From positions 1 to 64,000 of IMG/VR virus record IMGVR_UViG_3300018877_000004: 64,000 nucleotides of DNA; one strand, 5' to 3'. Below are positions 33,501 through 60,630 of this stretch, piece by piece. The stretch's first letter is position 1, and every line of letters begins with the position of its first letter. The notes beneath the pieces are model-generated. The model worked only from the letters and a program-made list of their open reading frames with translations, did no database searches and was not told the DNA's origin. The position numbers and the translations under genes are program-made. Origin of the DNA: a virus.

Positions 33501-33537
33501 GCGATCGAAGATTAAAGTTCGATCGCAGAATTCCTAC
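33501..33537 (-). promoter_or_regulatory. GTAGGAATTCT + hairpin leader before tail gene
   Basis: On the minus strand the order is GTAGGAATTCT (33537-33527), a perfect 9-bp stem GCGATCGAA / TTCGATCGC with an 8-nt loop, then the ATG with no gap. With the hairpin removed, the AGGA core lies 5 nt from the start codon. No other ribosome site is present. Confidence 0.6.
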
Positions 33538-33540
33538 AAG

Positions 33541-34869
33541 CTAGAAGATGGCGTATTCCGCATTTAGTTCATTGCGAATGGCGATCCGATCGTTGCTTCC
33601 CAACTCTTCGTTGTAGATCAATACCGCACTGATATCGCCTAAATATCCTGTGCCTGTGTAGCCATAGCCTAGCTGGAAAGTTCCGGTTAGGTTTGAGGTG
33701 TTGCCGCTCGCCGTTGTAGCGATTGTGCCATCGTTGACCTGCAAATTGATATTGCCGTTACCCCGCCAGTAGGTGGCGATCGCCGCTGCTGTTGCTCCCC
33801 CTGGCAGCGTCCTTTCTGCTAAATCTTCATTGCCGTCCCAGTTTTGACCCTGTAGCGTTGCTGGCGACTTGAGGAATAACCCCATGTAAGCGCCATTGTC
33901 TAGCAACATTCCGTGGTTTACGTATCCTGTTGAGCTGTTTGCCGTGATGCTGCTGGGTTGAAAAACGATAAAGATTGTGAACGCCTGTGCTGTGACCAAG
34001 CTATCCATTCTGCCGCCCGCCAAAATGTTTGCCAAGCTTGTAAACCGTACAGTTGGCTTACCGTTGATCCCATTTGACACAAATAGCGGCGGATTGCTAC
34101 TTGAGCTTATGCTCGTAGTTAGCGGAGCTTTGTCGCTCCACTGCGTTACTCGGTTAGATGTGTTTACGGTGATGCCACTGTTGGCGAACAGATGACGCTT
34201 TAAGCTCGATCGCTGAATAACGCTAACAACGAAATCTGCATCCCCGATCTGCTTGGTGATGCCCTCGCCACTAATCACGGTGATGCCATTGCCGATCGCC
34301 CATGTGATGCCTTGTCCGCCAAAGATAAGCGTGTCGTAGTCCCCAGACCCGATCGCTTGAGTGATGCCTTCGCCAGTTGCAGGCTCTAGCAGTAATGGCG
34401 CATCCCCTAAAGCGCGCGTAACTCCTGATCCAACCGCCGTTACTGTTGCATAGCCCGTCTGCCGTGTAACGCCTTGCGCTAAGAAGTAGGGCGTCTCAGT
34501 GCTGCCATCGCCTGTCGATCGCGTTACTCCTGATCCGATCTGCGTTGGCAAAATTAGAGGAGCATAGCCGATCTGCTTGGTAATCCCAGCCGCAACTGAA
34601 GTGGCAACAGCATTACCCACCTGCTTCGTGGCGCCCTGTCCGGCAAAATAAGACGGATCAAAGCTGGCATCCCCAATCGATCGAGTGACACCCGCCCCAT
34701 CCTGATAGACCAGTAGTTTAGGCGCATAGCCTACTATTTTGCTGATGCCTGCGCCTGCTGTTTCAGGCACATTCAAGGGATAGGGGTAAGTAATCCCGCT
34801 TCCGGTTGCCAGCGTCACGCCTGCTGCTGCGGCAACGATCGCAAAAGGCAGCTTTAAGTATCTAGCCAT
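33541..34869 (-). CDS. tail fibre-like protein with short repeats and lectin-like C-terminus
   Basis: The first ~210 residues hold about nine copies of a ~22-residue unit with the pattern G-x-G-(I/V)-T-(K/R)-x-(I/T)-G-(Y/D/N)-A. The C-terminal ~230 residues resemble concanavalin/LamG-type sheets (FVSNGINGKPTVRFTSLANI, then FTIFIVFQPSS and GYLGDISAVLIYNEELGSND). The combination of repetitive stalk and lectin fold fits a receptor-binding appendage. Its start overlaps the hub gene's stop. Confidence 0.65.
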   Translation of the reverse strand: MARYLKLPFAIVAAAAGVTLATGSGITYPYPLNVPETAGAGISKIVGYAPKLLVYQDGAGVTRSIGDASFDPSYFAGQGATKQVGNAVATSVAAGITKQIGYAPLILPTQIGSGVTRSTGDGSTETPYFLAQGVTRQTGYATVTAVGSGVTRALGDAPLLLEPATGEGITQAIGSGDYDTLIFGGQGITWAIGNGITVISGEGITKQIGDADFVVSVIQRSSLKRHLFANSGITVNTSNRVTQWSDKAPLTTSISSSSNPPLFVSNGINGKPTVRFTSLANILAGGRMDSLVTAQAFTIFIVFQPSSITANSSTGYVNHGMLLDNGAYMGLFLKSPATLQGQNWDGNEDLAERTLPGGATAAAIATYWRGNGNINLQVNDGTIATTASGNTSNLTGTFQLGYGYTGTGYLGDISAVLIYNEELGSNDRIAIRNELNAEYAIF

Positions 34870-36709
34870 CTAAAATCTCTCCTAACCAGATGCCGTCGCC
34901 ACCTAAAAAGCAATTGCGATTGTCAAAGGCGATCGCAATATTGTTTAGCAAGAATTTATACTCACGACCGTCAGGCTCAGCTACAGATATGGTTTGCAGC
35001 GGTGGTCGATCGTTCAGCCAATAATCACTCAGCGCAAACTCGATATTCTGCCCCAAGTGCCGCCCGATCAGCAATTTCCCCAAGCGTCTTGCAGCAGTAT
35101 TTAACTCCTCTTGATCTGCGTAAGGCACGTCATAGGTGCGCTCCCTCTCCTGGTACTCCGCACCTGCGTAAGAGCGGAATTCTGCCACACCTTCGATCGG
35201 CTTTTCTTCTGTGGTTGTTTTGGGCTTCCTTCGATCGGGCGCAGGCGGTTGCGCTTGCCCTGAGTTGCTGGTTACGGTTTGCTTATCGGTGAGCAAGATC
35301 CCCAGCTTGGCGCTCGTTGGCGTATCCGGCAGCATCGCCTCGATCACCTCTGGAAATGCCCGCGCAACAGCTTCATAGGTCGATTTGGTGTATTTCCACT
35401 CACCCTTGTAAACCTCTTTCCAGGTTTGATTTTCTGCGGCAGAGGGCACTAAAAAGGCAGGGTTGCCAAATGTCCAATCCTCGTTAGGCAAGATAGCGCC
35501 CTGCGGTTCTGATGTATCGCTAAAGATTCCGATCGTCTGCTCTAGGCTGTAGTCGTAAGTCGTGATTGTGCGCTCAGCCGCGACCATGTTCGATCGATTG
35601 TTCGCCTGCTCTTGCGCAGATTGTGTGGCGTAATATTCTCGTAGTGCCACCCCGTAGGGCTTGCGAACATGCCTCTCAATCCGTAGCAGTTTCCCTTCTA
35701 GCCCTGGTTCATAAACAAACGTTTCTTCTTGATCGAGGCTGGGCACTAAGGCGATTCGAGTGCTCTGCACATCCGGGAACACAAGCCCACGCGGTTCCAC
35801 TCGGTAGGTTCTGACGGTTCGCGAGTTTGGGCCCCAAGATTCCTCGATCGTTTCTCTAGAAAAGATTGTGATGCCGCCTGCGTTGGGAGAGACGATCGCC
35901 GCTGGCCCCCATGTTTCAACGGTGCTTTTGTTGTAATCGTCCGTGTACTTCGTGATGTGTTCAGTGCCCGTACAGCGGACAATTTCGGCAGGCGTTTCTT
36001 CACTGCTGATCGCCTCGTAGCCAAGTTCGTCTTGCCCGATCGCTATTACTCGATGTGCTGTCGCGTCCTCATCATCAGGAATTGCAGACGCCCTTACATC
36101 CCCAGTGGCATCACACCAGAGATACCTGCCAGCCGCAAACGCAATCTGCCCTGCCTGCTGGATATAGCCTTCACTGCCTAACTTTTGCAATGGGCAATTT
36201 ACATCACCAGGAATTGATCCGGTGAGATTGCCTGCACCTGCTGCCTGTAACAGCGATGCCACGACATCCGATCGAGTGCTGGTTGTACCGGGTGCAACGC
36301 CGCTTTCATCCCCCGGTGGTTGCCTAAAGTCAAGGAGTGAGAGCTTATCACCAATGTCTAGGGTGATAGTCGGGCGAACTCTTGGCGTGGGTGGTAGCGG
36401 CTCTTTGAGGATGTGAACCGTCTTATATCTAACCAGCGTCCCGACACTGTTTGCCAGCCAAATCACTACACGGTTGCCACGCGCCCAGCGAACGCGATCG
36501 CGCCTGGGATTGCACTCGATCGTGATTCCTGGAGAATAGGCATTCAGGACGATATCGCCTGTCCAGGATTGAATACCACTTTGATCGAGTAGGTTGCAGC
36601 TACCACTGAAGGAGGCAACGATCACGGTTACGTCTAGTCCTTGCGCGATCGACTCACCAGGCGCAGCAACGACGATTTTGAAAGGGCGGGAACTGCGATC
36701 GACGGTCAT
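34862..36709 (-). CDS. tail hub/tip structural protein (615 aa)
   Basis: Located directly after a small-gene group following the tape measure gene, with mixed beta domains (AYSPGITIECNPRRDRVRWA, then QIAFAAGRYLWCDATGDVRA). This is the position of tail hub or baseplate-like proteins in siphophages. Family not recognised with certainty. It follows a GTAGGAATTCT + hairpin leader. Confidence 0.55.
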   Translation of the reverse strand: MTVDRSSRPFKIVVAAPGESIAQGLDVTVIVASFSGSCNLLDQSGIQSWTGDIVLNAYSPGITIECNPRRDRVRWARGNRVVIWLANSVGTLVRYKTVHILKEPLPPTPRVRPTITLDIGDKLSLLDFRQPPGDESGVAPGTTSTRSDVVASLLQAAGAGNLTGSIPGDVNCPLQKLGSEGYIQQAGQIAFAAGRYLWCDATGDVRASAIPDDEDATAHRVIAIGQDELGYEAISSEETPAEIVRCTGTEHITKYTDDYNKSTVETWGPAAIVSPNAGGITIFSRETIEESWGPNSRTVRTYRVEPRGLVFPDVQSTRIALVPSLDQEETFVYEPGLEGKLLRIERHVRKPYGVALREYYATQSAQEQANNRSNMVAAERTITTYDYSLEQTIGIFSDTSEPQGAILPNEDWTFGNPAFLVPSAAENQTWKEVYKGEWKYTKSTYEAVARAFPEVIEAMLPDTPTSAKLGILLTDKQTVTSNSGQAQPPAPDRRKPKTTTEEKPIEGVAEFRSYAGAEYQERERTYDVPYADQEELNTAARRLGKLLIGRHLGQNIEFALSDYWLNDRPPLQTISVAEPDGREYKFLLNNIAIAFDNRNCFLGGDGIWLGEILDG

Positions 36710-36746
36710 TAGGCAGCGCTAGATAAGCTGCCGTGAGAATTCCTAC
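36710..36746 (-). promoter_or_regulatory. GTAGGAATTCTCAC + hairpin leader before hub gene
   Basis: On the minus strand GTAGGAATTCTCAC (36746-36733) is followed by GGCAGC, a 9-nt loop, GCTGCC and TA, then ATG. Skipping the hairpin leaves about 10 nt between AGGA and the start codon. No other Shine-Dalgarno is near the ATG. Confidence 0.55.
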
Positions 36747-36750
36747 TGAT

Positions 36751-40900: not shown

Positions 40901-43163
40901 GACGGGTATATCGTTCTTCGTCTATACCTTTGTCCTGTGCTAAAGCTTCTAAGGCTGCTAGCTGCTGCTTGGCCTGCGTCACGGCATTATCATTAGCTGC
41001 CTGAGTCTGCTGCACCTGTCTTTGAGCAGCAGCACGGCGATCGAGCAATGCTTCTTCTTCTTTGCGAATTGCAGCGAGTGCGTCAGCATCTTTAGGATCG
41101 ACGGCAAGTTTGCGTTTTTCAATTTGAGCAAGCATTGCATCAATTTGCTTTAGCTCATTGATCGCCCCGCCGCCCGCCTGGGTTTGTGTTCGTAAATCCA
41201 GCGATTGCTTTAGAACATCTTGAACTCGCTGCCCAAACTCTGCGGCGGCTTGCAATTGATCTTCTATTTGCTTCTCTGAGTTGGTTGGCAGTGCCAAGAA
41301 ATCATCAGGCAAGCCTACACTGGTATTCAAAAAAGTATTGAAATCATTAAAGCGATGCTTTAGGCCATCAATCCAGCTTGTTGGCGGCGGCTTGTCCGGG
41401 AAGATTCGCGCCATGTCGGGAACGTTCCGAGTGGTTTCGCTCAGCTTGAGCAAAGAATGATCAAGTGAGTCGATCGATTCCCGTACCTCTGCCCCGCCGT
41501 CCTTTGTAATGTCTAGAATTTCGTAGAACAGCGTCAACGCAACATAGGCAAGTCCGGCTTGTGCAGCGAGTTTGCCTATTTGTCCAACCGTCACAGAAAT
41601 TTGCTTGCCAAACAACTCCATCGCGATCGAACCTTTGCCCCCTTGTGAGATAAATCCTGCAAGCACGGTTCCCATTTTTCCGACAGCACCCGCACCGCGA
41701 AGCGCGGATGCGACTAAAATCGCGTCGATCGCGGTTCCGAATAAAGCTGCATTGTTTGCACCAAATTCAAGGGCTTTTGCAAGCGCTTCAATTGCAGGCG
41801 TACCGATGTCTAGAAGGTCTTTTCCTAATGCAACTGATACTTCACCCAAAGCATTGTTAAAGCGATTGACTGCTGCTGTACCTGAAGTCATTGCATCAGT
41901 TACACCTGACTGCGTGACTGATGCTAGGGCAGCAGCAAATTTAGGAATAAAGTCGGCTGAAGCAACGTCGCCTGCCGAAATTAATCCTTTAACTTCCCCC
42001 GATGTGACGCCAAGTGCTTGCGCTGCGGCATCTAGCGCACCGGGAATTCTTTCCGATAGCTGATTGAGTTCTTCGAGTTGAACCGTGCCACCCGATAAAC
42101 TTTGCCGCAGCGCCAAGAATAGGCCGGATGTTTCTTCGGCAGACAAGCCCATCACGGAGGCTGCTTGCGCAACATCGGTAAAAGTTTGACTGGTTTTGTC
42201 AGCATCAAACCCTGCTAAAGTCGCCGCTGCCGAAAACTGAGCAAAACCTTCACTAAGCGCCTTAAAATCCAGTCCGAGATCGTCGGCTGTTTGCCTGAGA
42301 AAATCAAGATCTTCTTTTGCTCCCCCTGCTGAGGTTGAGGTAAGTTCAAGACGATTGTTTAGGGATTCAAATTGCCGCGCTGCATTAAAGTTCTCTTCAA
42401 TTCCGCCGAACACTCCGTCAACAATATCGGAGATGTTCTTCCATTGATTGAAGAGGATCGCGGCGTCGCCCAGATCTTCCATTGCCGACTGAAAGGTTTC
42501 AGCTGCCCCAATGTATTTTTGAAGCTGCTGCCCAAACTGCCCAACTGAAACCCAAGCAGAGTCAATGCCCTTCTTGGCATCGCCTGCACCATTCGACAAT
42601 CGATCGAACGCCCTGCCCGCTCCTTCTGCAAGACTGGCGAATGGTGCGAATGCTGCACCTGCTGCTCTCAGAGAGCTAGCAATATCTTCAAGAAAATAGC
42701 TGACTAACTTGAGGTTGACTCTCAGTGTTTCGAGCGCACCGCTAAAAGCTACAATCGCACCTTGAGCGATCCCTTGAGCGATCGCCAGCGTCTTTAACCC
42801 TGTAGAGGCAAGACTCAAAACCTCTAGACTGCTAGAAACCTGTCCTAGCCCCAGCGAGGATAAAGCCTCTGCCTGAAAATCAGGGATCGGGAGTGCGGCA
42901 AGACCACCAATCCCGTTTTTTAGGTTTTCAACTAGCGAGGTGGTGAGCTTGAATTCATTGCCTAGCCGATGGGTATCGTCAACTAGTCCAATGATGGTTG
43001 AGCTTAGAACCTGTAACCCTGCACCGCTAAAGCTTTCGCCTGTAGAGATACCTTGGATTGCTTTGGCGACAAATTGGGCTTCTCGCGTTACTCCGCTTAG
43101 CTCTTTGCGTAGCGGGCTGGAGTCTGCGGATAAAACAAGATTGAGGGTTCCGAGACTTGCCAC
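37974..43163 (-). CDS. tail tape measure protein
   Basis: A 1729-residue protein with a tape-measure-type domain at roughly residues 250-440 (FESLNNRLELTSTSAGGAKE, then LGLDFKALSEGFAQFSAAAT and LMISAGDV-like ISAGDVASADFIPKF), hydrophobic segments near 530-570 and long coiled coils. The distal part repeats a ~113-residue unit (for example ARLEAIERANQQAEAAIDQ and ARLDAMESANRQAEAAIDQ, each followed by I..EEAT/EEAE and GELGELN-type ends). At the usual ~0.15 nm per residue the tail would be near 260 nm (inference). It starts with a GTG inside a hairpin. Confidence 0.9.
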   Translation of the reverse strand: MASLGTLNLVLSADSSPLRKELSGVTREAQFVAKAIQGISTGESFSGAGLQVLSSTIIGLVDDTHRLGNEFKLTTSLVENLKNGIGGLAALPIPDFQAEALSSLGLGQVSSSLEVLSLASTGLKTLAIAQGIAQGAIVAFSGALETLRVNLKLVSYFLEDIASSLRAAGAAFAPFASLAEGAGRAFDRLSNGAGDAKKGIDSAWVSVGQFGQQLQKYIGAAETFQSAMEDLGDAAILFNQWKNISDIVDGVFGGIEENFNAARQFESLNNRLELTSTSAGGAKEDLDFLRQTADDLGLDFKALSEGFAQFSAAATLAGFDADKTSQTFTDVAQAASVMGLSAEETSGLFLALRQSLSGGTVQLEELNQLSERIPGALDAAAQALGVTSGEVKGLISAGDVASADFIPKFAAALASVTQSGVTDAMTSGTAAVNRFNNALGEVSVALGKDLLDIGTPAIEALAKALEFGANNAALFGTAIDAILVASALRGAGAVGKMGTVLAGFISQGGKGSIAMELFGKQISVTVGQIGKLAAQAGLAYVALTLFYEILDITKDGGAEVRESIDSLDHSLLKLSETTRNVPDMARIFPDKPPPTSWIDGLKHRFNDFNTFLNTSVGLPDDFLALPTNSEKQIEDQLQAAAEFGQRVQDVLKQSLDLRTQTQAGGGAINELKQIDAMLAQIEKRKLAVDPKDADALAAIRKEEEALLDRRAAAQRQVQQTQAANDNAVTQAKQQLAALEALAQDKGIDEERYTRLKQQFEAALTQAEQEKAALDGLASTTTKVAENAVTDFQKSNHEIEASYNQRQAAIAESLAKNEITEEQSREQSLQAEQEYLQKRLELNQSLLEKLRTELEKNQQLKLRDPDDAILTADQEKQYAEQVKQLELETAQTRIQIAQNTREGKQQALEDELKGIEQANSEAEAAVRQSQSERTAAIRQQQLAGTVGEEEAAAKIAEIQRDSIAEQIDLERDKLAQLAELEAAGTIPAEEAAKRRLDIQSEISDLSLQQIEAELDARLEAERKAADEAKELRDSVNIDATRETTQVRVRQAGGEINEAEAAAEIAEITANATARQIELVEQRLGVVRRGSDEEKDLTRELADLQQQSAEQEIARQEQVKQARLEAIERANQQAEAAIDQGETAEITAIRELQAQRVISAEEAETRIAAMRQRTVALQIALTESEIEQVRQLRAEGVLSEEEAIERLSDLSGELGELNQQRVENEIDAQERLKQARLDAMESANRQAEAAIDQSQTTGVTAIKSLQAQRIISEEEATEEIAALQQEALDQQIAQTQEQIAEIQQLRSEGILSEEEATDRLIDLNGELGDLNEERIDAEIDSQERLRESRIKSLNEELDFKRKSAEADQGLNQIAIDSIKNENNLLSAQSSLLEAQSGLAEQRLQYALEDAETAGNSAQADQIRQQILSQQTVAQEKQFAIARQQLELKREQVALESQQRQIQADIAITEAEVALSTAAINGENQQVIAGLERILDLRRQQRKAVNDQNRAQERSLELEQQTLTTQQQQTREQQARQRAQSNNRNSGSGSGSGDQPGSGSGSSGGSRSSGSSFGSRSGLAPSRSLVSRESLVAAMGAGSMPANFSYGGIGGSRTQQAEWRTPEWSDGRSTPVQSPSAASTMAASRQLSPLQLQGLSQVGLQRNAQANRAAQPQTTGTLTASQFNSGINQLSQRIVQLANAPRAVTLQTPEPVRDYQRISSDLMSSRARAAGI

Positions 43164-43200
43164 AAAGTTTGCTTAAAGACTTCGTGGCTAGAATTCCTAC
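43159..43200 (-). promoter_or_regulatory. GTAGGAATTC + hairpin leader at tape measure start
   Basis: On the minus strand GTAGGAATTC (43200-43191) is followed by a 10-bp stem with one G-U pair, GCCACGAAGT / ACTTTGTGGC, and a 10-nt loop. Here the GTG start codon itself lies in the 3' arm, unlike the other copies, so the hairpin may instead hide the start. Confidence 0.45.
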
Positions 43201-45132: not shown

Positions 45133-45831
45133 TTAGACGATCGCCGTTGGGTTAACCATTGACGGCTTACCGTTGAAGGCGGCGTCAATATTTCCGGTGA
45201 TGATGCCATCTGCCGGGGCGGATAGCGGCATTGAGGTAATCGACCCTGTACCCTTGTAGACTTTGCCCTTGCTGTAAACAGTCGGGCGAGGATTGGGCAA
45301 CTGCATCCAGAAATAAAGTTGCTGGTAGCCCTCATTAAACCAATGCTCAGCGGTGGCGTAGCCTGCATCGAGAGGCGACCAGTTGCCTTGCATGTTTAAC
45401 CCGATCGAAATCGTTGTGGTGCGCCCGGACTCGTAGGCATCGTCATCAAACGTCACGGTTGTTACTCGGTTACCAGAACGATCAAGGTCGGCAGTGGTAC
45501 GAGCGCGAAGCTTGAGCGGATATTCGACCGTCGAACCTGCCACGATCGCTTCTGGTAGCGGCTTGACTGATAGTGATGTATCTCCGGCATCAGCATCCGC
45601 GTCAAGCTGTACTAGAACCTCATAACCCAGCGCACTAACGGCGTTAATGTAGCTGTCTTTGGGTACAAAGCTGTCCGCAGGCAGTGCAGGCGTAACCGTG
45701 ATGGTGGTTGCCCCTTTTGCCGCTGCCGATGCCGTTGCAGTAAATTCAGTCGGCTCTGTTTCGATACCATCGGGAAGCGCAGCGAGCCACAGTTCTACGC
45801 CTTTACCTGTGAAGAAAGGGGTCTTTGCCAT
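45133..45831 (-). CDS. major tail tube protein
   Basis: A beta-rich 232-residue protein just before the chaperone and tape measure genes. Repetitive Thr/Ala/Val segments (KGATTITVTPALPA, GDTSLSVKPLPEAI) fit tube folds, and the layout (terminator, tube, chaperones, tape measure) is standard. No second sheath protein was found, so a non-contractile tail is likely. Confidence 0.75.
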   Translation of the reverse strand: MAKTPFFTGKGVELWLAALPDGIETEPTEFTATASAAAKGATTITVTPALPADSFVPKDSYINAVSALGYEVLVQLDADADAGDTSLSVKPLPEAIVAGSTVEYPLKLRARTTADLDRSGNRVTTVTFDDDAYESGRTTTISIGLNMQGNWSPLDAGYATAEHWFNEGYQQLYFWMQLPNPRPTVYSKGKVYKGTGSITSMPLSAPADGIITGNIDAAFNGKPSMVNPTAIV

Positions 45832-45871
45832 TGCAGAGTCTTTAGAATTAGTTCTGCGGGCAGTGTTCCTA
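45832..45871 (-). promoter_or_regulatory. TAGGAAC + hairpin leader before tail tube gene
   Basis: On the minus strand TAGGAAC (45871-45865) is followed by GCAGA, a 15-nt loop, TCTGC and A, then ATG. Skipping the hairpin puts AGGA about 10 nt from the start codon. Confidence 0.45.
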
Positions 45872-46303
45872 TGCTTCTCTCAGCAGAGTTTGAGTAAGAA
45901 CCATCGATAAAATTTCGATATTGCCAAGCTCTACGATCGGGATCTGACGCCGAACGCTGCCACCTTGCAGTGACCATCCAGGCAGCGTGATCATCGTCTC
46001 CAGGATTTTTGATAATGCGCCCAGCGTGTTCTGCTCAGCACTCCACTGTTTCAACAAAATCTGAACCGTGTAAGTTTCCTCGAAAGCATTGCCCATCAAG
46101 GGACGCAGCGGCACATCAGGGCGGAACACAAGCACACACTCTAACCCCTCTGCTTTAGTTCCAACGATTGGGCTGGTGTCGGTTCCCATGCTCAGCACGA
46201 TCGCAGGCGTGGTCTGCCCGTTTGGGAAAACATAGATCCCCAGTTCATCACTCAGCGCTGTCTCGATCGCTGTCCTCAGTCCGATCAGATCCACCTCTTC
46301 CAT
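45869..46303 (-). CDS. tail terminator-like protein (144 aa)
   Basis: Alpha/beta protein (LRTAIETALSDELGIYVFPN, then TYTVQILLKQWSAEQN) just before the tail tube gene in transcription order, the normal position of lambda gpU-type tail terminators. The ATG giving MEEVDLIGL is preferred. Confidence 0.6.
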   Translation of the reverse strand: MEEVDLIGLRTAIETALSDELGIYVFPNGQTTPAIVLSMGTDTSPIVGTKAEGLECVLVFRPDVPLRPLMGNAFEETYTVQILLKQWSAEQNTLGALSKILETMITLPGWSLQGGSVRRQIPIVELGNIEILSMVLTQTLLREA

Positions 46304-46493
46304 CACCAAGCCTCATAATAATTAGGGATATTGGGCGATCGTCCGCACTGTACTCGATGATTTCTGCTCTGGTTGCCGTCGCCTTGGTAGCAGGTAGCCC
46401 GTCTGCGCCTTCATACCGGACGATCGCATACTTCCCGCCATTGGGTAGCGGATCTTTTTCGGTTGCTTCAATCCGTTCGGTGGTGTCATCCAT
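46248..46493 (-). CDS. hypothetical head-tail connector-region protein (81 aa)
   Basis: An acidic N-terminus and beta strand (GGKYAIVRYEGADGLPATK) with an acidic tail. Overlaps the MuF gene's stop and the tail terminator-like start. Function unknown. Confidence 0.5.
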   Translation of the reverse strand: MDDTTERIEATEKDPLPNGGKYAIVRYEGADGLPATKATATRAEIIEYSADDRPISLIIMRLGDGRGGSDRTEDSDRDSAE

Positions 46494-49400
46494 TCGGGTT
46501 GCCTGCGTTCTCGATGTCTTTCAGAATTCGTCTGCGTCTTGCTTCCAGTCGATCGACTGCAATCCCTCGCTTTTGTCCGCGTTCTCTTGCTTCAATTCGC
46601 TTTTGAATTTCTAAATTAACTTCTGATAGTTCACCCTGAAGTGCTGCTAATCGTGCGATTTGGGCTTGCGCCCGATCGACCTCACCCTGTCGTCTGCGCA
46701 GGCGATCGTCTTCTTCTGCCGTCACTCTTGCCGCAACGTCAATCTGAGGGATCTGCAAGAATTCTCGCAACTGCTGATTGTATTGCTCTAGCTGCGATCG
46801 CAAGTCTGTCACGCTCAGGGCGCGACCATCCACCTCATAAATTAGCGCTGCCCCTTGATCGCGTTCACTACGCTGCTGGAGTGCCGTGGCAATGGCAAGC
46901 GCATCTTCAATCTCACGAGCGATCGCTGCTTTGGTCTGTGCTGTTTCCTCAGCAAAGCCATCACGAGCGCGTCGGTACAGTTCAGACTGATCAATGATTT
47001 GGCGCGGGTCAACATTCTCATCAGTTAGAAGCAGGTTGGCAAAGTCTTGGTTGAACTCTGCCAAATCTTCGATCAACTGATTGCCCGATCGCGCTACATC
47101 GATCGCTCGAATCCGCTCTGGCGTCTTCAAAAGCTGTTGAATCTGGCGATCGCTTAACCTGCCCTCATCCGCCAACTCATCGCGCAACTGCTGCCACTGA
47201 GCGATTTGGGCAGCGGCTTGAGCGGTCGTAGCCTGTGCAAGCTGATCCGGGTAGTCAAGCTGCTTTTGAATCGACTGGATGCGCCCGTTTACCTGTCCGA
47301 CTAGCTTTGCTACTTCGTTGGCGGCAGACTGTAAGCGCTCGTTTGGCGTCTTCCCCGGCTGGCGCTCCAAGACGATCGCCAAATCTGAAGGCATCGCCCC
47401 TTCTTCCCAGTTGCGACTATCCAGCAGCCACGCGACTGATCCGGGACGGAGAGAGGCAAGGATCTGTAGGTTGGTGCGAACGGTTTCGACATCGCGGCTA
47501 ACGATCGCTTGCAGGTTGTTAATCGCTGATTGCCGCTGAGTGCTGTAGTTGTCGGATAGCTGCTGTGTGGTGTTAGCACGAACCGCAAGCTGTGAACTCA
47601 ATTCAGCGCGTAACTGTCGATACTGCTCAACCCGTTGCGGTAGCTTGCCTTGAGCGTTGCGGGTGCGCCTAATTGCACTGTATCGATCGCGCTGTTCTGT
47701 GGTTAAATCCTGAGTTTTGGTAGGCAGTCCATTCAGGCGTTGCAGCAGATCGTCTAGTTTGTCACGACTAGAATCGAGTCGCGCTGTCAAAATCTCCAGT
47801 GATTCTGCCGCCTGCGATACTTGTCGAATGCGCGGTTCTAAATCTTGGCGGTGCAAGTCTGTCACGCCCACGCCTGTAGACTGTGAGTTCACTGCTGCCC
47901 GCAATCGCTGCAAATCTCGCAACGCCTGCGATTTTTCACTCGATCGCGGCAAGTCCAGTAACTCTTTTTCTGCGGCTTCTAAATCCTGCTTTAAGCCTGT
48001 GATCGATCGTTCTACATCCCGCCGTTCTCCCTCTGTCTGCAAGGATTCGCGGCGAGTGCTGAGGTCGTTTAATGTCCGCTGTAATTCTGCGCTGTTGGTT
48101 CGCAGCTTCATTGCGGTCTGCTCAATGTTCTCGATCGCCTGTAGCTGCTTTGACGCTTGCTTGAGTTGCGCCTTAGCCGCTCGAATCTGCTGCGGTACGG
48201 TCGAGAAGTAGGGCGGATTGAGTGGATTAAGTAGCTGTGCCGCCCGCTGCTCGATCGCTTCGATTTGCGCTTCGACTCGGTTGATCGCCTCCTCTTGGAT
48301 GCGAATTTCCTGAGACGCTTGTTCCTGCTGCACCGCTGTGCGTGGCAAATCCACTCGATCGAGTGCCTGCTGAATTTTCTTGGTGCTGCGTTGCGCTGTC
48401 GCGAGTTCGTTAGCCTGCTCTCGCTGGGTGCGAATACGATCGGCAAGTGTGGCGTTGGCACTGCGCAAGTTTTCAACAATTTGCGGGCTGCGTGTATCCG
48501 GTTGTTGTGGCTCAGCGGATTGAGGTTGAAGGACACCTTTGCGAGGATGGCGATAGTCAAAGATGCGGGCGATCGCTTCGTAGCGGGCGGGCGCAAATTT
48601 CTTTAGATAGTCAGGATTTAAGAAGAACTCTTTCACCGATTCAGCAAAGTCGCGATCGGGTCGGTTCTGATACGCCATGCGCGTCTCTTGCATGGCACGG
48701 GCGTATTCAGAGCGCTCAGGTGGCGTCAGTTGTCCAAACTGCTGATACGCCCTCAGATAGCCAGCTTGCAGCAGCAGATCGTCAATCTTGGCACGTCCTC
48801 CGTAGAGCACGATCGCCCCTTCGTCGAAGGTGACCATGCCATTGACTTTAGGCGTGTTCAGCTTCAGCTTTTTGCGCCAATACTGCTCTGAAGCGTTGCG
48901 CTGTCGAGTGATATAAATGTCGCCACTGCCAAGCGCATTCTCAGGCAAGTCAAGTTCTGCCACCTTGCGCAATAGGTCAAGGGTGGGGCTGTTTTCTCCT
49001 AGTTTGGGGACGTACCAATCGACGCCCTTAAATCGAAAACGATCGAACTGTTCAGCGTCTTTTGCGCCTGGCGGTGTTGCTTCTGCTGTCTCGATCGTGC
49101 CTTGCAACTGCTCGAAAACTGCCTTGCGATAGGCTGCACCTTTCGCCTGTGCAGGCATATCCTGTCGCTTGATTTCATCGATCGCTTGCCGCAGTCGAAA
49201 CTCTGCCAGTCGTGAGGCTCCCCGATCAATCGATCGGGCTTGTTTGTAGAGGTTCCGGGCGATCTTCGTCTCTAGTGCCTGTCGTTCAACGGGTGTCAAT
49301 GGCGCAAGCTCTACGCCTGCTGGCAGCGCCAATCGCGGTAGCTCACCCCGCAGTAGTCCTTTAACGGGTTGTGCTTCAGGTAGTGCCAGCAATGGCTCAT

Positions 49401-51438
49401 ATCCTGGTAGTGCTTTTGGTTCTGCTAGCCCCGGCAAGGCTTTCGGATCAGCGCGTCCGGGCAGTAATCCGGCAGCGTTACGGGCAGCAAGAACCTTTTG
49501 CGCGATCGCAGGGGGAAGCAATCGAATCTCGTCAGCACTCAGCAACAGCAGTTGCGGGATCAGTTCGTCAATCTGCCGTGCTAGTACATCGTCGTCAATG
49601 GTTCGCTCGGTCTTGACAGGTTCAGCCGCTTCGCTCGATCGTTCTTTGCGTGGAATGTCTGTCTTCAGAAATTCTTTGATCGTGGCGACGAATTCCTCAT
49701 CAGGCAAGTACTGCTCTAATGAGTGGTTTTTGACATTGGCAAGTGGAACGCGATTGAGGGCGCTAAGCTGTGCCCACGGATCACCTGTGCCAGCGATCGT
49801 GATGCCCTGCTCTGGCGACATTTCATTGAAGCCGAAATAAGGCGACCCGATCGCAATCACCTTGGCAGTGATGCCCATCTCCTTAAGGATCTCTGCTGCC
49901 TCGAATGCCGTTGCACCGCCCGCGCTGTAGCCGATGATGTTGATCGGCTTGTCAGGATACTTTTGATGAAAAGCATAGGCTTGCGCTGCAACCCTCACGG
50001 ATGCCATGTTGCGCCCTTCAACGATCGCAGTCGAAAGGAACTTCGAGAAGATCTGGCTTACCTTGCGAGGTGTGGGCGCACCGCCCGGATCTTCTACATC
50101 GAATTCGGGAGTGCGTACCCCAATGACGCGATGCTTGGGCAATACGACTTTTTGAAAGTAGTTCGCTAGATAAATGCCTTGCCCGCCCTGCTCACCTGAA
50201 AAACCACCCACGACAAACGTCACCTGCTCATCGTTTTCGCTGGGGTCAGCTTCTACCCCTTTGCGAAACTTTTGCGACAGTTCTTGCGCCATTGTTGCCG
50301 ATCGCTTAAACCCTTTGCGATAGCGCGATCGGGCGAGATAGTAGCTGCCGACTGTCGTACCTGCGACCGCTGCCCCAACCGTGAGCGCAATTAGTAGATC
50401 GTTGTTGACCTGCTCTTGTGGAGTCTGCCGACGCGATCGATCTGTGAGCAGTTGCGCTGCTAGTTTTCCGACTGCCCATTGTTCGCCCTTAACCTGCACT
50501 GAGCGATCGAGGTAGCCATCGACAGGCGTCCAAACTGGCTTAGGTGGCGAGATATTTGCAGCACGTTCAAAGGGCGCAACATTGCCAGCGGATTGATCTG
50601 TTGTTGTCGCTTTGACTTTTTCAGCGTGTTGCTTAACCCACTCGTTCGCTTTAGGGTCAGACGCCTCCTGTTCAAGGAAGTATGGCGAATTAAAACAACG
50701 ATCGCGCGGATGAATTACAGCAGGCGCAGCATCCACTGGGTAAACGTTGCCAGCACGATCGGCGCAGAATTTGCAGACCCTACGATCTTGCGTGGCGATT
50801 CTTTGGACATATTGAATCCCGTATTCCTTGTATCTCGATCGAGTGGCTGAGTCTTGCGCCGAAATGATCTCAGTTCGTGCGATCGTCTCTGCTTTGCCTT
50901 TTGTTACACCTAGTCGCTGCCGCAGAAATCCAGCAACTTTTTGCGCCCCCTGCCCTTGAATTAGACCCTGAGTGATAATTACTGACGCTTCTTCACGGAA
51001 GGTCTGATCGTGCTTCTTGAGGCGATCTACTGCATCCCTAGCCGCAAATGCAGCAGCTTCGATCGGTACAGTTGCAGTTGCCTTGATAAAGCTGTCGCCC
51101 TGCTCAAGTGCTACCAACTCATCGCCTAGCGTCGTCCCCTCTTTCGAGGCAGTTGATAGCAACTTTTCATAGCGATCGCGCAACTCCTGCTCACGATCGG
51201 GGTCAATTAATATCAGTTGCGCTTGCAGATCGTTGACCAGAAGAACGCCTCGCTGAGTCGCTAGCAAGTCTGGTTTTGATTTTGCGGTGTAGTTCGGATA
51301 CCTGCGCAATAAATCAGCTTCGAGCCGTCGATAGGAAGCGTCTAGGGCTGCATAAAGTCGATCGACTTCCGCATCTTCCATGTCTTGAAGAGTGCGATCG
51401 GTTCTTTCGATTAATTGTGCTGCCGCTTCGCCGCTCAC
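46486..51438 (-). CDS. giant MuF/SPP1 gp7-like minor head protein fused to hydrolase and degenerate zincin-like domains
   Basis: A 1650-residue protein. Residues ~180-255 form the MuF/gp7 head domain (RTEIISAQDSATRSRYKEYG, CKFC at 222-225, HPRDRC ending at 248). A hydrophobic segment lies at ~347-368. Residues ~405-590 resemble an alpha/beta hydrolase: GFSG, nucleophile elbow GYSAGG with Ser505, Asp553 in GTGDP, His572 in NHSLEQY. Residues ~835-960 resemble a zincin toxin domain (GAIVLYGG, then DRDFAESVKEFFLNPDYL) whose expected HExxH reads QAGYL. The rest is coiled coil. It fits the MuF family of phage-encoded polymorphic proteins. Confidence 0.75.
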   Translation of the reverse strand: MSGEAAAQLIERTDRTLQDMEDAEVDRLYAALDASYRRLEADLLRRYPNYTAKSKPDLLATQRGVLLVNDLQAQLILIDPDREQELRDRYEKLLSTASKEGTTLGDELVALEQGDSFIKATATVPIEAAAFAARDAVDRLKKHDQTFREEASVIITQGLIQGQGAQKVAGFLRQRLGVTKGKAETIARTEIISAQDSATRSRYKEYGIQYVQRIATQDRRVCKFCADRAGNVYPVDAAPAVIHPRDRCFNSPYFLEQEASDPKANEWVKQHAEKVKATTTDQSAGNVAPFERAANISPPKPVWTPVDGYLDRSVQVKGEQWAVGKLAAQLLTDRSRRQTPQEQVNNDLLIALTVGAAVAGTTVGSYYLARSRYRKGFKRSATMAQELSQKFRKGVEADPSENDEQVTFVVGGFSGEQGGQGIYLANYFQKVVLPKHRVIGVRTPEFDVEDPGGAPTPRKVSQIFSKFLSTAIVEGRNMASVRVAAQAYAFHQKYPDKPINIIGYSAGGATAFEAAEILKEMGITAKVIAIGSPYFGFNEMSPEQGITIAGTGDPWAQLSALNRVPLANVKNHSLEQYLPDEEFVATIKEFLKTDIPRKERSSEAAEPVKTERTIDDDVLARQIDELIPQLLLLSADEIRLLPPAIAQKVLAARNAAGLLPGRADPKALPGLAEPKALPGYEPLLALPEAQPVKGLLRGELPRLALPAGVELAPLTPVERQALETKIARNLYKQARSIDRGASRLAEFRLRQAIDEIKRQDMPAQAKGAAYRKAVFEQLQGTIETAEATPPGAKDAEQFDRFRFKGVDWYVPKLGENSPTLDLLRKVAELDLPENALGSGDIYITRQRNASEQYWRKKLKLNTPKVNGMVTFDEGAIVLYGGRAKIDDLLLQAGYLRAYQQFGQLTPPERSEYARAMQETRMAYQNRPDRDFAESVKEFFLNPDYLKKFAPARYEAIARIFDYRHPRKGVLQPQSAEPQQPDTRSPQIVENLRSANATLADRIRTQREQANELATAQRSTKKIQQALDRVDLPRTAVQQEQASQEIRIQEEAINRVEAQIEAIEQRAAQLLNPLNPPYFSTVPQQIRAAKAQLKQASKQLQAIENIEQTAMKLRTNSAELQRTLNDLSTRRESLQTEGERRDVERSITGLKQDLEAAEKELLDLPRSSEKSQALRDLQRLRAAVNSQSTGVGVTDLHRQDLEPRIRQVSQAAESLEILTARLDSSRDKLDDLLQRLNGLPTKTQDLTTEQRDRYSAIRRTRNAQGKLPQRVEQYRQLRAELSSQLAVRANTTQQLSDNYSTQRQSAINNLQAIVSRDVETVRTNLQILASLRPGSVAWLLDSRNWEEGAMPSDLAIVLERQPGKTPNERLQSAANEVAKLVGQVNGRIQSIQKQLDYPDQLAQATTAQAAAQIAQWQQLRDELADEGRLSDRQIQQLLKTPERIRAIDVARSGNQLIEDLAEFNQDFANLLLTDENVDPRQIIDQSELYRRARDGFAEETAQTKAAIAREIEDALAIATALQQRSERDQGAALIYEVDGRALSVTDLRSQLEQYNQQLREFLQIPQIDVAARVTAEEDDRLRRRQGEVDRAQAQIARLAALQGELSEVNLEIQKRIEARERGQKRGIAVDRLEARRRRILKDIENAGNPNG

Positions 51439-51550: not shown

Positions 51551-52222
51551 ATGCGATCTGCTTCCTCTGTTCGGTCAAGCATTCCTATTGCAAAACTGCT
51601 GAATCGTCACCGCCCGCTTGCATTGAAAATTGCGAGGCGAATGCAGTCGCTTTGTGGTGAACCACTAGAAGACCTAGAGCAACTTGCACTAGTTGGATTG
51701 ACCAAAGCCCTTAAGGGATACGATCCGACTTTAGGGCTTAAATTTAGTTCGTTTGCTGTGCCCAGCATTCGCGGAGAAATCATGCATTTTCTGCGCGATC
51801 ATGGGGAGTTAATGAAAGTGCCGCGCCGTGCCCGTGAAACTGCGGCAAGCGTAAAAAAACAGCATCGCCAACTTGTTTCGCAGGGGCTTGATTTTCCGAT
51901 CGTTAAAGTTGCGGCGGCGATGGGGATTAAAGAGGAAGTGTGGAAGTGGCTAGAGGAGGCAACCGCTAGCAAGTCGATCGCCCCACTTGATGAGGAGTGG
52001 CAGCAGTCCGCAGAACCGCAATTTTCAGAAGATCCTGAGCATCAACCCTTGCAAGAAGCGATCGCACGCCTTCCTTTTTTGCAGTACGAAGTCACGATCG
52101 ATCGCTATTACTTGGGAATGTCTGATCAGCAGATAGCAACCCACCATGACTTGAGCTTGTCCGAATTAAAGTGCTGTGAGTCTGCCGCCCTAAACGCCCT
52201 CAGAACTGCCCTGGAGTCCTAA
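51551..52222 (+). CDS. SigF/SigB-like group 3 sigma factor (late module)
   Basis: Region 2 is visible as IAKLLNRHRPLALKIARRM, then LEDLEQLALVGLTKALKGYD, FSSFAVPSIRGEIMHFLRDH and MKVPRRARETAAS. The RGEIMHFLRDH-type region 2.4 is characteristic of SigF/SigB-type sigma factors of cyanobacteria and Gram-positives. Region 4 is weaker (MSDQQIATHHDLSLSELKCC). The ATG at 51551 is chosen; earlier GTG/TTG starts are possible. It heads the head-gene unit and is a candidate late-gene switch. Confidence 0.85.
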   Translation: MRSASSVRSSIPIAKLLNRHRPLALKIARRMQSLCGEPLEDLEQLALVGLTKALKGYDPTLGLKFSSFAVPSIRGEIMHFLRDHGELMKVPRRARETAASVKKQHRQLVSQGLDFPIVKVAAAMGIKEEVWKWLEEATASKSIAPLDEEWQQSAEPQFSEDPEHQPLQEAIARLPFLQYEVTIDRYYLGMSDQQIATHHDLSLSELKCCESAALNALRTALES

Positions 52223-54172: not shown

Positions 54173-54182
54173 CGGGGCGATC

Positions 54183-54218
54183 GGGAATCTTCACAACAGA
54201 TAGCACCTGTTTGGACGA
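54183..54218 (+). promoter_or_regulatory. GGGAATCTTCAC + hairpin leader before small terminase gene
   Basis: GGGAATCTTCAC (54183-54194) is followed by AACAG-atagcac-CTGTT (54195-54211) and then the ATG seven nt later. The stem is only 5 bp and the effective spacing is longer than in the other copies. Confidence 0.35.
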
Positions 54219-56040: not shown

Positions 56041-56044
56041 CTCA

Positions 56045-56078
56045 GTAGGAACGCTCACAACAGCGATCGCCCCTGCTG
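56045..56078 (+). promoter_or_regulatory. GTAGGAAC + hairpin leader before portal gene
   Basis: GTAGGAAC (56045-56052) is followed by CAGC (56061-56064) and GCTG (56075-56078), which pair and abut the ATG. The stem is only 4 bp, making the structure weak, but the element is the same as in other head and tail genes. Confidence 0.35.
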
Positions 56079-57656
56079 ATGACCTATAGCTATATTGACG
56101 AGCGAACAAAGCGGACTCCGCTACCTGACGCCAAGACAGCGCCTTTGCCCTCGACGCATGGGGTAGGTGCGCCTTGCAATGCTTATGAGCAGATGCAGGG
56201 TTGGTGGGATGTAATCGAATCGGTAAAAGCTGGCACTCCTGGTATTCGCAAGGGCGGCAAATCATTTCTACCGATCGAGCCTTTTGAGCGAGAAGACGCC
56301 TACGGACGCAGGCTAGGGCGATCGTGCTTTGCGCCTTGGTACGTGCGCTTAGTTCGTGGCGTGGTCGGCATGGTGCTACGCAAGCCGATCGCACTCCAGG
56401 ACGTTGTTCCTGCGATCGAGTCTCACCTCGACAACATTAACCTGCTAGGAGACGACCTCAACTCATTTGCGCGTGAGGTATTTGAGGCAGCGATCGATTT
56501 TGGTTATACCGGGATCTTTGTGAATTATCCCAAGGTTGAAGAGGGAGACGTTCGCACTCGTGCCGATGAGGTGGAAAGAGGCTATCGCCCTTACTGGGTG
56601 CATTACACTGCACCTGAGATTATTGGATGGCGTTACAGCACGATCGGCAATCGACGCGTATTTACTCAGCTACGCATCCGCGAAAACTCGATCGAGCCTA
56701 TGGGTGAGTTTGGAGAAGCAGAAGTCGAGCGGATTAAAGTCTATGACCTGTATGAGGGTCGCTGTCGTTATCGACTCTTTCAGGAGATCGACGGCAACTG
56801 GATGCAGGTGGGGGACGATGGTTTTCTATCACTGCCTTATATTCCATTTACCTTTATCTATACGGACAAGAAGCGAGAATCAGTCACCCGTCCGCCGATG
56901 CTGGAGGTCGCCTATCTCAACATCAACCATTTTCAATTGTCGTCTGATCTCAACCATAGTTTGCACATCACTGCTCATCCTAAGCTTGTTCTGTACGGCT
57001 ACAACACCGATCAAGGTGATGTGGTTGTGGGTGCAGATGAGGCACTGGTATTTGACAACCCAGATGGACGCGCAGAGTGGATTGCACCGCCCCCAACCTC
57101 GTTTGATGGCCTCAACAGCCGCATTGACAAGCTAGAGCAGCAGATGGCAATGCTAGGACTGTCTACGCTGGTTGGTCAGAAGAATGTAGGTGAGTCGGCA
57201 GAGGCGAAAAAGCTCGATCGAGTGCAGGGTGACAGCATCATGAGCGTTATTGCTCAAGGGTTGCAAGATGCGTTCGATCTTTGTCTAGAGTTCCACGCTG
57301 CCTACATGAACCAGCCAGCAGGCACTTGTCAGGTCAATCGCGACTTTGACGTGGCAGAGTTGACGCCACAAGCGATCGATGCCTTTAGCCGTTTGCACAG
57401 CGCCAGTCAGATCAGCCTAGAAACACTGCTAACGCTGCTGAAAAAAGGCGAAATATTTGACGATGAGTTTGACATTGAAGAAGAGATCGCCAAGTTGGAG
57501 TCTGAATTCAAACGACAGGCTGCGCCCGTGCCAAGTGACACTAATACGGTCGATGTGAATGCGATTCCACTTAGCCAACGGCAGTTGATTCAGCAAGAGG
57601 ATTCGATCGCAAATCTGGAGCAAATGAATGGTAGGAACCCTGCGGGCGAAGTATAA
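56079..57656 (+). CDS. portal protein (DUF4055/SPP1 gp6-like)
   Basis: Features of DUF4055 portals are seen: FLPIEPFEREDAYGRRLGRS, then CFAPWYVRLVRGVVGMVLRK and PIALQD. The length (525 aa) and position between terminase and scaffold fit. It forms the dodecameric channel at the capsid vertex. The start has the GTAGGAAC-hairpin leader and no close SD. Confidence 0.85.
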   Translation: MTYSYIDERTKRTPLPDAKTAPLPSTHGVGAPCNAYEQMQGWWDVIESVKAGTPGIRKGGKSFLPIEPFEREDAYGRRLGRSCFAPWYVRLVRGVVGMVLRKPIALQDVVPAIESHLDNINLLGDDLNSFAREVFEAAIDFGYTGIFVNYPKVEEGDVRTRADEVERGYRPYWVHYTAPEIIGWRYSTIGNRRVFTQLRIRENSIEPMGEFGEAEVERIKVYDLYEGRCRYRLFQEIDGNWMQVGDDGFLSLPYIPFTFIYTDKKRESVTRPPMLEVAYLNINHFQLSSDLNHSLHITAHPKLVLYGYNTDQGDVVVGADEALVFDNPDGRAEWIAPPPTSFDGLNSRIDKLEQQMAMLGLSTLVGQKNVGESAEAKKLDRVQGDSIMSVIAQGLQDAFDLCLEFHAAYMNQPAGTCQVNRDFDVAELTPQAIDAFSRLHSASQISLETLLTLLKKGEIFDDEFDIEEEIAKLESEFKRQAAPVPSDTNTVDVNAIPLSQRQLIQQEDSIANLEQMNGRNPAGEV

Positions 57657-57672
57657 GGGCTATGCCCGCCCA
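57631..57672 (+). promoter_or_regulatory. GTAGGAACCCT + hairpin leader before scaffold gene
   Basis: GTAGGAAC (57631-57638) is followed by GCGGGC (57642-57647), a 16-nt loop that contains the portal stop codon TAA, GCCCGC (57664-57669), CCA and ATG. Skipping the hairpin puts AGGA 8 nt from the start codon. Confidence 0.6.
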
Positions 57673-58410: not shown

Positions 58411-58505
58411 GTGCGGGAATTCTGCCATTGAGCTAATGGCTTTTTCACCTCGTAGGTAATGCCGAAGAGGGGACTGCACACCTATCTAATTGCCTACGAG
58501 GAACT
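58411..58505 (+). promoter_or_regulatory. structured leader of major capsid gene
   Basis: GGGAATTCT (58415-58423) is followed by GCCATT (58424-58429) / AATGGC (58435-58440) and TTTTT, a possible intrinsic terminator. Then CCTCGTAGGTAAT (58448-58460) pairs with ATTGCCTACGAGG (58489-58501), a 13-bp stem with one G-U, which buries the GAGG ribosome site 4 nt before the ATG. This could attenuate and control capsid translation. Confidence 0.6.
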
Positions 58506-59477: not shown

Positions 59478-59486
59478 GAGGACGAC

Positions 59487-59951
59487 ATGGGATTAACAGG
59501 ATTTGAGCGGGCACGACGATTAGCGAATGAAAACGTCTCATACCCAGAGGCGACCGATCATTACCTTGGCGTTGGCGAAACTGCCGACGCTGAGGTGAAG
59601 ACCAAAACCAAGGCAGAGGCAGACATCGTGAAGGACTACGACGAGCGCAAACCTGCCTCGATCGGAGAGGGAGAAGGCGACAACAACAAAGGAGTGGATA
59701 CAGAACCGGACTATACCGGACTGCCCTACTCTGCTGCAACCAAGCCAGGGGACAACCAAAAGAACCACCCTGAAAACTTGGAAGCTTTGAAGACTGACGC
59801 TCCGCTAAAAACGGTTGACGAGACTCAGAAACTACTAGAGGGCCAACCCAGTGAAACACCCGTCATTGCCTCGGATCCAATCGATCGCGCCCGTAAATCG
59901 CGCAAGTCAGCCAGCCCGATCGCCCCAAGTGACGAAAGTGTCGATGGGTAA
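59487..59951 (+). CDS. acidic disordered protein (154 aa)
   Basis: A clean AGGAGG site precedes the ATG. The sequence is charged and rich in Glu, Lys, Asp and Pro (AEVKTKTKAEADIVKDYDE), suggesting disorder. It may be a capsid decoration or head accessory protein. Confidence 0.6.
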   Translation: MGLTGFERARRLANENVSYPEATDHYLGVGETADAEVKTKTKAEADIVKDYDERKPASIGEGEGDNNKGVDTEPDYTGLPYSAATKPGDNQKNHPENLEALKTDAPLKTVDETQKLLEGQPSETPVIASDPIDRARKSRKSASPIAPSDESVDG

Positions 59952-60023
59952 CGGTCGGATCGTTGCCCTTAACAAAGTTCGCGCCACAATGCCGCCTGCT
60001 TCTGGGCTGAGGGTGATGTAGCC

Positions 60024-60374
60024 ATGCCGTTTGCCGCCACGACACGCGATCGGGTTATGGGCTGCTTAGAGCTGCCTGTAACCGTCTATTACTGCCAGAA
60101 CGTGCAAGATGCCCTCAATCACGCGGAAGCCTATGGCGGCGAGCCTGCGGTGACGCGAATTGAGGGCTATCTGACCCAATACGAAGCGCAAGAGACGGCG
60201 CTAAGTGAAGGGACGGAGAATGCCGGATTGGTCAAGGCAGACGTGCTTGAGTGGGCGCTGGGCGGCAAGACGGCGGGTATTAAGTCAGAAATGAACCGAC
60301 TACGCCGTGCTGTCGCTCGATCGCTGCTGTTGGATCACTTGACTAGTCGTGGAGGTGTTCGGCTAGTTCGTTAA
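60024..60374 (+). CDS. head-completion/adaptor-like protein (116 aa)
   Basis: An alpha-helical protein (MGCLELPVTVYYCQNVQDAL, later GIKSEMNRLRRAVARSLLLD) located after the capsid genes, where head-tail adaptor proteins lie. Assignment is by position. Confidence 0.5.
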   Translation: MPFAATTRDRVMGCLELPVTVYYCQNVQDALNHAEAYGGEPAVTRIEGYLTQYEAQETALSEGTENAGLVKADVLEWALGGKTAGIKSEMNRLRRAVARSLLLDHLTSRGGVRLVR

Positions 60375-60383
60375 AGGGTGGAA

Positions 60384-60596
60384 ATGGAAATATCTACACA
60401 AATAGAGCGCTGGCAGCAGAACGGATTGTATTTTGCTGCGAAGAAAACAGCAGAAAATCGCTGGCTAGTGTGGTGTTCGTTTGAGCCTGTTGTGGCTAAT
60501 AGCCCAGTGCATGAAAATCCAGCGCAATGCGTATGGTTTGAGCCTGAAGTGACTAAACAAGCTGCGATCGATCGACTACTGGCAGAAATAGGGTAG
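60384..60596 (+). CDS. hypothetical protein (70 aa)
   Basis: The ATG at 60384 follows AAAGGGTGG. The protein is short and aromatic (KKTAENRWLVWCSFEPVVAN). It lies in the head-completion group. Function unknown. Confidence 0.55.
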   Translation: MEISTQIERWQQNGLYFAAKKTAENRWLVWCSFEPVVANSPVHENPAQCVWFEPEVTKQAAIDRLLAEIG

Positions 60597-60630
60597 GAAT
60601 CCTCACAGCGAATCGCAGCGCTAACAACGC
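60593..60630 (+). promoter_or_regulatory. GTAGGAAT + weak hairpin leader
   Basis: GTAGGAAT (60593-60600) precedes GCG (60608-60610) and CGC (60628-60630), which abut the ATG. The 3-bp outer stem is weak. The block itself is the same as before other structural genes. Confidence 0.3.

Follow-up and report, generated by a model that had tools for sequence, protein, structure and literature searches.

Why should head and tail genes on both strands of one viral genome share a short repeated block with a hairpin behind it? The question arises in the window, by which we mean the first 64,000 nucleotides (nt) of the 69,499-base IMG/VR record IMGVR_UViG_3300018877_000004 (G000), where the block GTAGGAAYNCT stands ahead of the starts of structural genes. 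A preliminary description of this DNA took block and hairpin for a translation module shared by late genes, with a mechanism as in gene 38 of phage T4, and named as its alternative a promoter element for a phage SigF-like factor. The module exists and is common to the late genes, but the T4 gene 38-type mechanism fails across relatives. That reading is probably wrong and the promoter alternative right, being better supported by a conserved cytosine-purine (C-R) step, a near-constant distance and a sigma factor ortholog.

In the explanation that we favour, with a probability of roughly 0.64 for the whole, GGAAYNCT (here GTAGGAAYNCT) would be the -10 element of late promoters lacking a -35 element, read by the host RNA polymerase with the phage SigF-like sigma factor encoded at 51551-52222. 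Transcription would start at the purine of the C-R step, 7 nt past the last T of the block, and the resulting leader would be short, usually about 20 nt, and mostly without a Shine-Dalgarno (SD) site. The inverted repeat would span this +1, its 3' arm lying at or over the start codon region. Promoter transcripts would lose all or much of the 5' arm, whose position is upstream of the predicted +1 or across it, and be more open, and RNA reading through from an upstream gene would contain both arms, fold and hide the initiation region; most translation of a late mini-operon would thus come from RNA begun at its own promoter. That the block is a late promoter seems to us very probable, and, given the promoter, we consider it likely that the hairpin acts as a lock on read-through RNA. 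Block, C-R step, spacing, absence of a -35 element, sigma gene, own-arm complementarity and predicted folding come from the sequence, and from them we infer promoter activity, recognition by the 51551-52222 protein and silencing of read-through RNA.

The block, its spacing and the predicted +1

Where 4.15 copies of the word GTAGGAA are expected, the window has 11, a number reached by none of 100 shuffles. Six of these copies sit in leaders, the other five at 2261, 15282, 19899, 55890 and 63383. The strict form GTAGGAAYNCT is present six times in the record, each time ahead of the start of a head or tail cluster gene (56045, 57631 and 60593 on the plus strand; 43200, 36746 and 33537 on the minus strand). 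The recurrent leaders on structural genes are thus real. A looser word, GTAGGAAT with one mismatch allowed, is not enriched in the window (36 versus 31.45 expected). The first G of GGAA precedes the start codon by 31–39 nt in nine window copies; the exception is the capsid block at 58416, which lies further upstream than had been looked. The absence of an ordinary ribosome site near the starts was also seen correctly, as only one of the nine window leaders has an SD-like word (gene 30107, beyond the range first described), and the capsid gene is an exception, as had been said, with an SD-like word seen by eye. The elements are as follows.

30131..30138, minus strand: putative late promoter block of gene 30107 (peptidase M15), predicted +1 30124; the leader has its own SD-like GAGG
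33527..33537, minus strand: -10-like putative late promoter block GTAGGAATTCT of tail gene 33500, predicted +1 33520, leader 20 nt
33501..33526, minus strand: inverted repeat of tail gene 33500, 9 base pairs (bp); 5' arm 33526-33518 crosses the predicted +1, 3' arm 33509-33501 abuts the ATG
36736..36746, minus strand: putative late promoter block of hub gene 36709, predicted +1 36729
36712..36732, minus strand: inverted repeat of hub gene 36709, 6 bp; 5' arm 36732-36727, 3' arm 36717-36712
43190..43200, minus strand: putative late promoter block of tape-measure gene 43163, predicted +1 43183
43159..43188, minus strand: inverted repeat of tape-measure gene 43163, 10 bp with one G-U; the GTG start codon is inside the 3' arm
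45862..45872, minus strand: putative late promoter block ATAGGAACACT of tail-tube gene 45831, predicted +1 45855
45833..45857, minus strand: inverted repeat GCAGA/TCTGC of tail-tube gene 45831, 5 bp
54184..54191, plus strand: degenerate putative late promoter block GGAATCTT of gene 54219, predicted +1 54198
56045..56055, plus strand: putative late promoter block of portal gene 56079, predicted +1 56062
56061..56078, plus strand: inverted repeat of portal gene 56079, 4 bp; 6 bp in relative G002
57631..57641, plus strand: putative late promoter block of scaffold gene 57673, within the end of the portal frame, predicted +1 57648
57642..57669, plus strand: inverted repeat GCGGGC/GCCCGC of scaffold gene 57673, 6 bp
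58416..58423, plus strand: putative late promoter block GGAATTCT of capsid gene 58506, predicted +1 near 58430 (a T-G step, not C-R), leader about 76 nt
58424..58440, plus strand: capsid hairpin with TTTTT behind it, terminator-like for read-through RNA; the 5' arm precedes the predicted +1
60593..60603, plus strand: putative late promoter block of gene 60631, predicted +1 60610; weak inverted repeat

Gene 54219 is called TerS by its position only and has no PHROG match.

In order to follow the block in relatives we used G001, G002, L153 and G003, found through single-protein scans of IMG/VR, and L173 (G006), L176 (G007) and the near-twins L225 and L241 (G010, G011), taken from TerL alignments; relatives were selected by the density of the HIP1 word GCGATCGC, which marks cyanobacterial DNA. 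G001, G002 and the 4-kb fragment L153 are close relatives out of one metagenome and, with G000, near-relatives of each other, and G003 is a more distant phage. L176 is likewise a 4-kb fragment, and the longer block-bearing records number seven (G000, G001, G002, G003, G006, G010, G011). As G001, G002 and L153 have many frame breaks, single-base differences there are not trusted.

Aligned on GGAA, 28 blocks show the core GGAAYNCT and a second conserved spot at positions 13–14. Upstream of GGAA the information in this alignment is near zero with no conserved -35, and no upstream word exceeds the shuffle maximum, which GATCG and CGATC equal. A two-block promoter was ruled out since a second conserved element is missing, and sigma-70-type promoters are not enriched in the structural regions (10 versus 12.5 and 8 versus 9.4). 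If the T at block position 7 is taken as -7 and the A at position 3 as -11, as we assume from sigma-70 geometry, position 14 becomes +1. The block sites were chosen independently of the C-R step, which lies at this fixed distance in 21 of 29 blocks from the window phage and its relatives (a pyrimidine-purine step in 25) and in 18 of 22 leaders compared to a 10% background (p 5e-15). Within G000, G003, G006 and L225 it accompanies 20 of 24 leader sites versus 4 of 45 other GGAAYNCT sites (p 7e-10). The predicted leader is 17–25 nt long in 19 of the 22 leaders, the remaining three having 0, 32 and 35 nt; the zero belongs to the G003 portal gene, whose block stands just before the ATG so that its A would be the +1 of a leaderless RNA, and which has no hairpin. 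Block, C-R step and a start 15–28 nt further on come together 30 times in the 333,852 bases of the seven sigma-bearing records, some of them near-duplicates, and three times in 1,189,243 bases from 108 other TerL-related loci, some of them overlapping. What is found is a -10-like element at a fixed distance to a pyrimidine-purine step with no second upstream element, as in single-element late promoters. An SD-like word near the start is absent from 18 of the 22 leaders, and, according to the available text of PMC3160421, many cyanobacterial genomes use neither SD-led nor leaderless genes.

The more distant G003 carries the word GGAACCCT eight times, always on the coding strand and never with A before GGAA; 1.3 copies are expected over both strands, and the maximum among 200 simulated sequences was 5. 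The portal leader of L153 has GTAGGAACGAT and a wholly different hairpin, and L176 has GTAGGAACGCT with a 6-bp stem ahead of a portal gene whose Pfam family differs from that of the window portal. In viral contigs GTAGGAATTCT occurs in at least 120 stretches, with 29 site-start pairs having an open frame among the matches listed; the best stem score among these was 15 compared to 17–23 for the window hub and tail leaders at like weights, and they were rejected. By eye the block was not seen before plus-strand annotated starts in the fetched stretches of the marine cyanophages KBS-S-2A, S-H1 and MED4-184. Beyond the window, G000 has a block GGAACACT with C-R step at 65342-65349 (minus strand), and no frame of 70 amino acids (aa) starts within 40 nt of it.

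Inverted repeats at the predicted +1

The inverted repeats are real, as the complementarity between a leader's own arms exceeds a swap control: over 21 leaders the own arms sum to 272 compared to a permutation mean of 212.6, the highest of 50,000 permutations being 266. Most of this signal comes from seven to eight individual leaders, and the excess is strong in the window leaders (p 5e-5). Limiting the 5' arm to the six bases between block and +1 leaves 230 versus 185.7 (highest of 20,000: 225), and no own-arm excess appears with control arms taken ahead of the block (p 0.11) or past the start codon (p 0.54). The stems singled out before, 9 bp at 33500, 6 bp at 36709 and 57673 and 5 bp at 45831, are as described, and three of the weaker ones are weak indeed, with 4 bp at the portal gene, 5 bp at TerS and 4 bp at 60631, the last not adjoining the start. 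In a hub leader copy of G002 both arms are kept and the loop is changed at six of nine bases; by eye, the G-U pair of the tape-measure leader is G-C in the G002 copy.

Folding predictions agree with a hairpin that would act on read-through RNA. Over 22 leaders the predicted energy needed to open the start region is higher in read-through than in +1 RNA, by 5.0 kcal/mol at the median, and this excess differs from that of 34 control genes (median 1.2) with p 4e-4 for the 21 leaders that remain when the leaderless G003 portal is set aside. In nine leaders that were drawn the read-through hairpin is lost in the predicted +1 RNA. Given the predicted +1, the arms lie as in the T4 genes e and I-TevI, the 5' arm upstream of or across it and the 3' arm over the initiation region. 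By gene order the leaders would open mini-operons on both strands (tube, tape measure, hub, tail gene and peptidase; TerS, portal, scaffold, capsid and 60631), and as promoters would head them, the lock would also act on late RNA coming from a neighbouring mini-operon. Whether the whole late regulon is built from self-insulating promoters, most with a differently sequenced lock of their own, and each mini-operon is translated only from its own SigF-type promoter RNA, seems to us an even bet.

The capsid leader has a second hairpin (CCTCGTAGG...CCTACGAGG) at 58448-58501 with the capsid gene's own GAGG, which is kept in the predicted late transcript. Capsid leaders of the relatives L004 and L005 show different two-hairpin forms, the first hairpin having compensating arm changes by eye.

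The sigma factor and rival explanations

Two proteins with sigma-70 region 2 are encoded in the record, and one of them is the candidate reader of the block.

51551..52222, plus strand: putative phage SigF-like sigma factor, heading the head-gene cluster; start uncertain, 51515 TTG or 51551 ATG

Its orthologs are found in G001, G002, G003, G006, G010 and G011, so the sigma factor is present in seven of seven longer block-bearing records. Region 2 was not found in the 4-kb fragment G007, the search not covering the fragments L153 and L226, nor in any of 29 TerL-related records outside the group (0/3 and 0/26). Region 2 passes the Pfam cut-off (50.2 versus 24 bits) and region 4 is weak (16.4 versus 24.1). 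SigBFG and SigF are the best NCBIfam models in the four sigma proteins tested. An AlphaFold2 model (pLDDT 75.9, pTM 0.39) matched sigma factors in Foldseek, S. aureus SigB being third, and with TM of only 0.3–0.4 these matches speak for the kind of protein only. The second sigma factor (6277-7152) is RpoD/RpoS-like and lies outside the structural clusters; the sigma factor of KBS-S-2A is closer to it than to 51551-52222.

Several observations weigh against promoter and lock. The 51551-52222 protein stays below the NCBIfam cut-offs (107.9/234 and 103.3/261 bits) and is, judged by these scores, a divergent SigF relative and not a formal SigF or SigBFG member. The association of sigma factor and block comes from few lineages with common ancestry, picked by HIP1 density, and the start codons of the relatives were assigned by us. 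The C-R step is missing from 8 of the 29 blocks (both of L176, G003 4260 and 29054, G006 31796, and the capsid blocks of the window, G001 and G002), and also from the L153 portal block GGAACGAT. Window hairpins are weak at portal and 60631, and own arms are no better than those of other genes in G003 11088 and 29082, the L225 scaffold and L176 1057. For 12 leaders from outside the window, arm positions 8–19 give p 0.197, and p 1.5e-4 only if the block may pair. Among the 34 control genes 19 likewise gain more than 1 kcal/mol in read-through RNA, for G003 TerS and L176 1057 read-through RNA is predicted no worse than +1 RNA, and in the scaffold +1 RNA other stems still lie over the start (-8.5 kcal/mol).

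The alternative that survives best, though we regard it as unlikely, keeps the late promoter and gives the inverted repeat another task: a weak split ribosome site in read-through RNA only, a read-through terminator, or an effect on the DNA at the melted start region. The repeats do span the +1, the AGGA would be transcribed in read-through RNA only, and the capsid hairpin is followed by TTTTT. This T-run is unique to the capsid copy among the window leaders, however, and is weak evidence alone because terminator-like sites are near chance in the structural regions (17 versus 18.8 and 16 versus 12.7). A scan of L225 finds a terminator-like hairpin (12665-12682) just ahead of the scaffold block but none ahead of the tail block, although by eye a shorter one is present there. 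Stems paired with the block are unfit for a split site, and since stem sequences differ from gene to gene a single DNA-binding protein is unlikely.

More doubtful still is the split ribosome site favoured at first, in which the AGGA of the block would pair with 16S rRNA and the hairpin bring the start to working distance. T4 genes 38 and 25 likewise have a hairpin between a GGA motif and the start codon, shortening the distance from 22 to 5 and from 27 to 11 nt as given in the accessible part of the source; the best window cases come to 5–10 nt once the hairpin is folded out (hand count), AGGA stands in seven of nine window leaders, and SD-like words are mostly lacking as noted above. Unlike in T4, AGGA is not conserved here: it is found in 11 of 22 leaders only, the base before GGAA being G in seven and T in four. 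The block is partly or wholly inside a stem in G003 11088, 20581 and 29082, the G006 portal, the L225 tail gene and, by eye, window gene 30107, whose block can pair with its leader, and the tape-measure start codon lies within the stem; a hairpin folded out to bring AGGA close does not fit across the relatives. A conserved unpaired SD 5' of the hairpin was not found in the leaders. The C-R step, the conserved CT and the near-constant linear distance are left unexplained, and we disfavour a split site because a fixed C-R step and a near-constant distance from block to start are expected of a promoter but not of such a site.

By far the least probable is RNA processing, with an endonuclease cutting at the block and the hairpin protecting the 5' end of the downstream RNA: by eye the block often comes soon after an upstream stop codon and many copies have a hairpin after it, but the C-R step is inside or beside the 5' arm, so that the hairpin would not survive a cut at this place, the block goes together with a phage sigma factor, and the L225 scaffold block behind a terminator-like hairpin needs initiation and not cutting.

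Known systems and neighbouring genes

A promoter combined with a lock has its closest likeness in T4, where a late promoter lies inside the 5' arm of a start-hiding hairpin in genes e, soc, 49 and I-TevI. In e and I-TevI, the cases best described in the source text available, longer early RNAs hide the start site and transcripts from the late promoters release it (PMC3014915, PMC2988022). The T4 late promoters TATAAATA need gp55, whereas here a SigF-like factor would read GGAAYNCT; and a handful of such genes are named there for T4, whereas here most of the late promoters found have a hairpin. The phiEco32 protein gp36 is likewise a phage sigma factor, with a single-element promoter tAATGTAtA and a start 6–8 bp downstream (PMC8948821), but the element differs in sequence, and the portion of the source available mentions no read-through lock for these promoters. 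The -10 sequence GGGWAW of the SigB/SigF promoters of Bacillales, given as KTTTW-N12-17-GGGWAW in the accessible part of PMC9847131, resembles the (G)GGAAY found here, but a KTTTW -35 at 12–17 bp, as in a bipartite promoter of this type, was not found here. Mycobacteriophages of cluster K have a short asymmetric repeat (SAS/ESAS) and inverted repeats at some gene starts, with a function left unsettled in the text available (PMC3203893); there the SAS, which includes AGGAG, directly precedes the start, and the inverted repeats have a common consensus and are placed on the upstream side of the SAS, whereas the stem here is gene-specific and downstream of the block. For Ma-LMM01, another cyanophage, late promoters are reported as SigA-like in the excerpt of PMC5780444. 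Among the titles listed by our literature search, which did not cover most of the subscription literature, none treats cyanophage late promoters of the SigF-like kind combined with read-through hairpins.

The analysis yields a late-gene programme that can be tested in a group of cyanobacterial siphophages without a close relative in the phage collection searched (best capsid identity 47.8%, hub and tube proteins unmatched), and names its likely sigma factor and the promoter code of this factor. Scans of host genome contigs gave no relative, and Rfam gave no match in the window at gathering score. A mechanism of individual T4 genes would become a candidate rule for an entire late gene set. If true, the individual promoters would set the virion's protein ratios although transcription overlaps and terminators between the genes are mostly lacking, and a promoter with a built-in lock could be of interest for cyanobacterial expression insulated from upstream transcription.

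In G002 (L157–L161; 94,714 bases) the hub, tape-measure and tube region is present twice, leaders included, and several genes are split across frames, which may reflect joined phages, a duplication or an assembly error. The portal protein of L176 (1893-4004; PF06381) is continuous with an inorganic pyrophosphatase-type domain. A serine recombinase at 19780-21201 suggests that the window phage is temperate. The window also encodes an EAL domain protein of the cyclic-di-GMP hydrolase family (23823-24602), a type IV pilin-like protein with an N-terminal methylation motif (27317-27805), and a protein of 1650 aa (46486-51438) that has a Mu F-like head domain and, below threshold, a thioesterase/hydrolase match.

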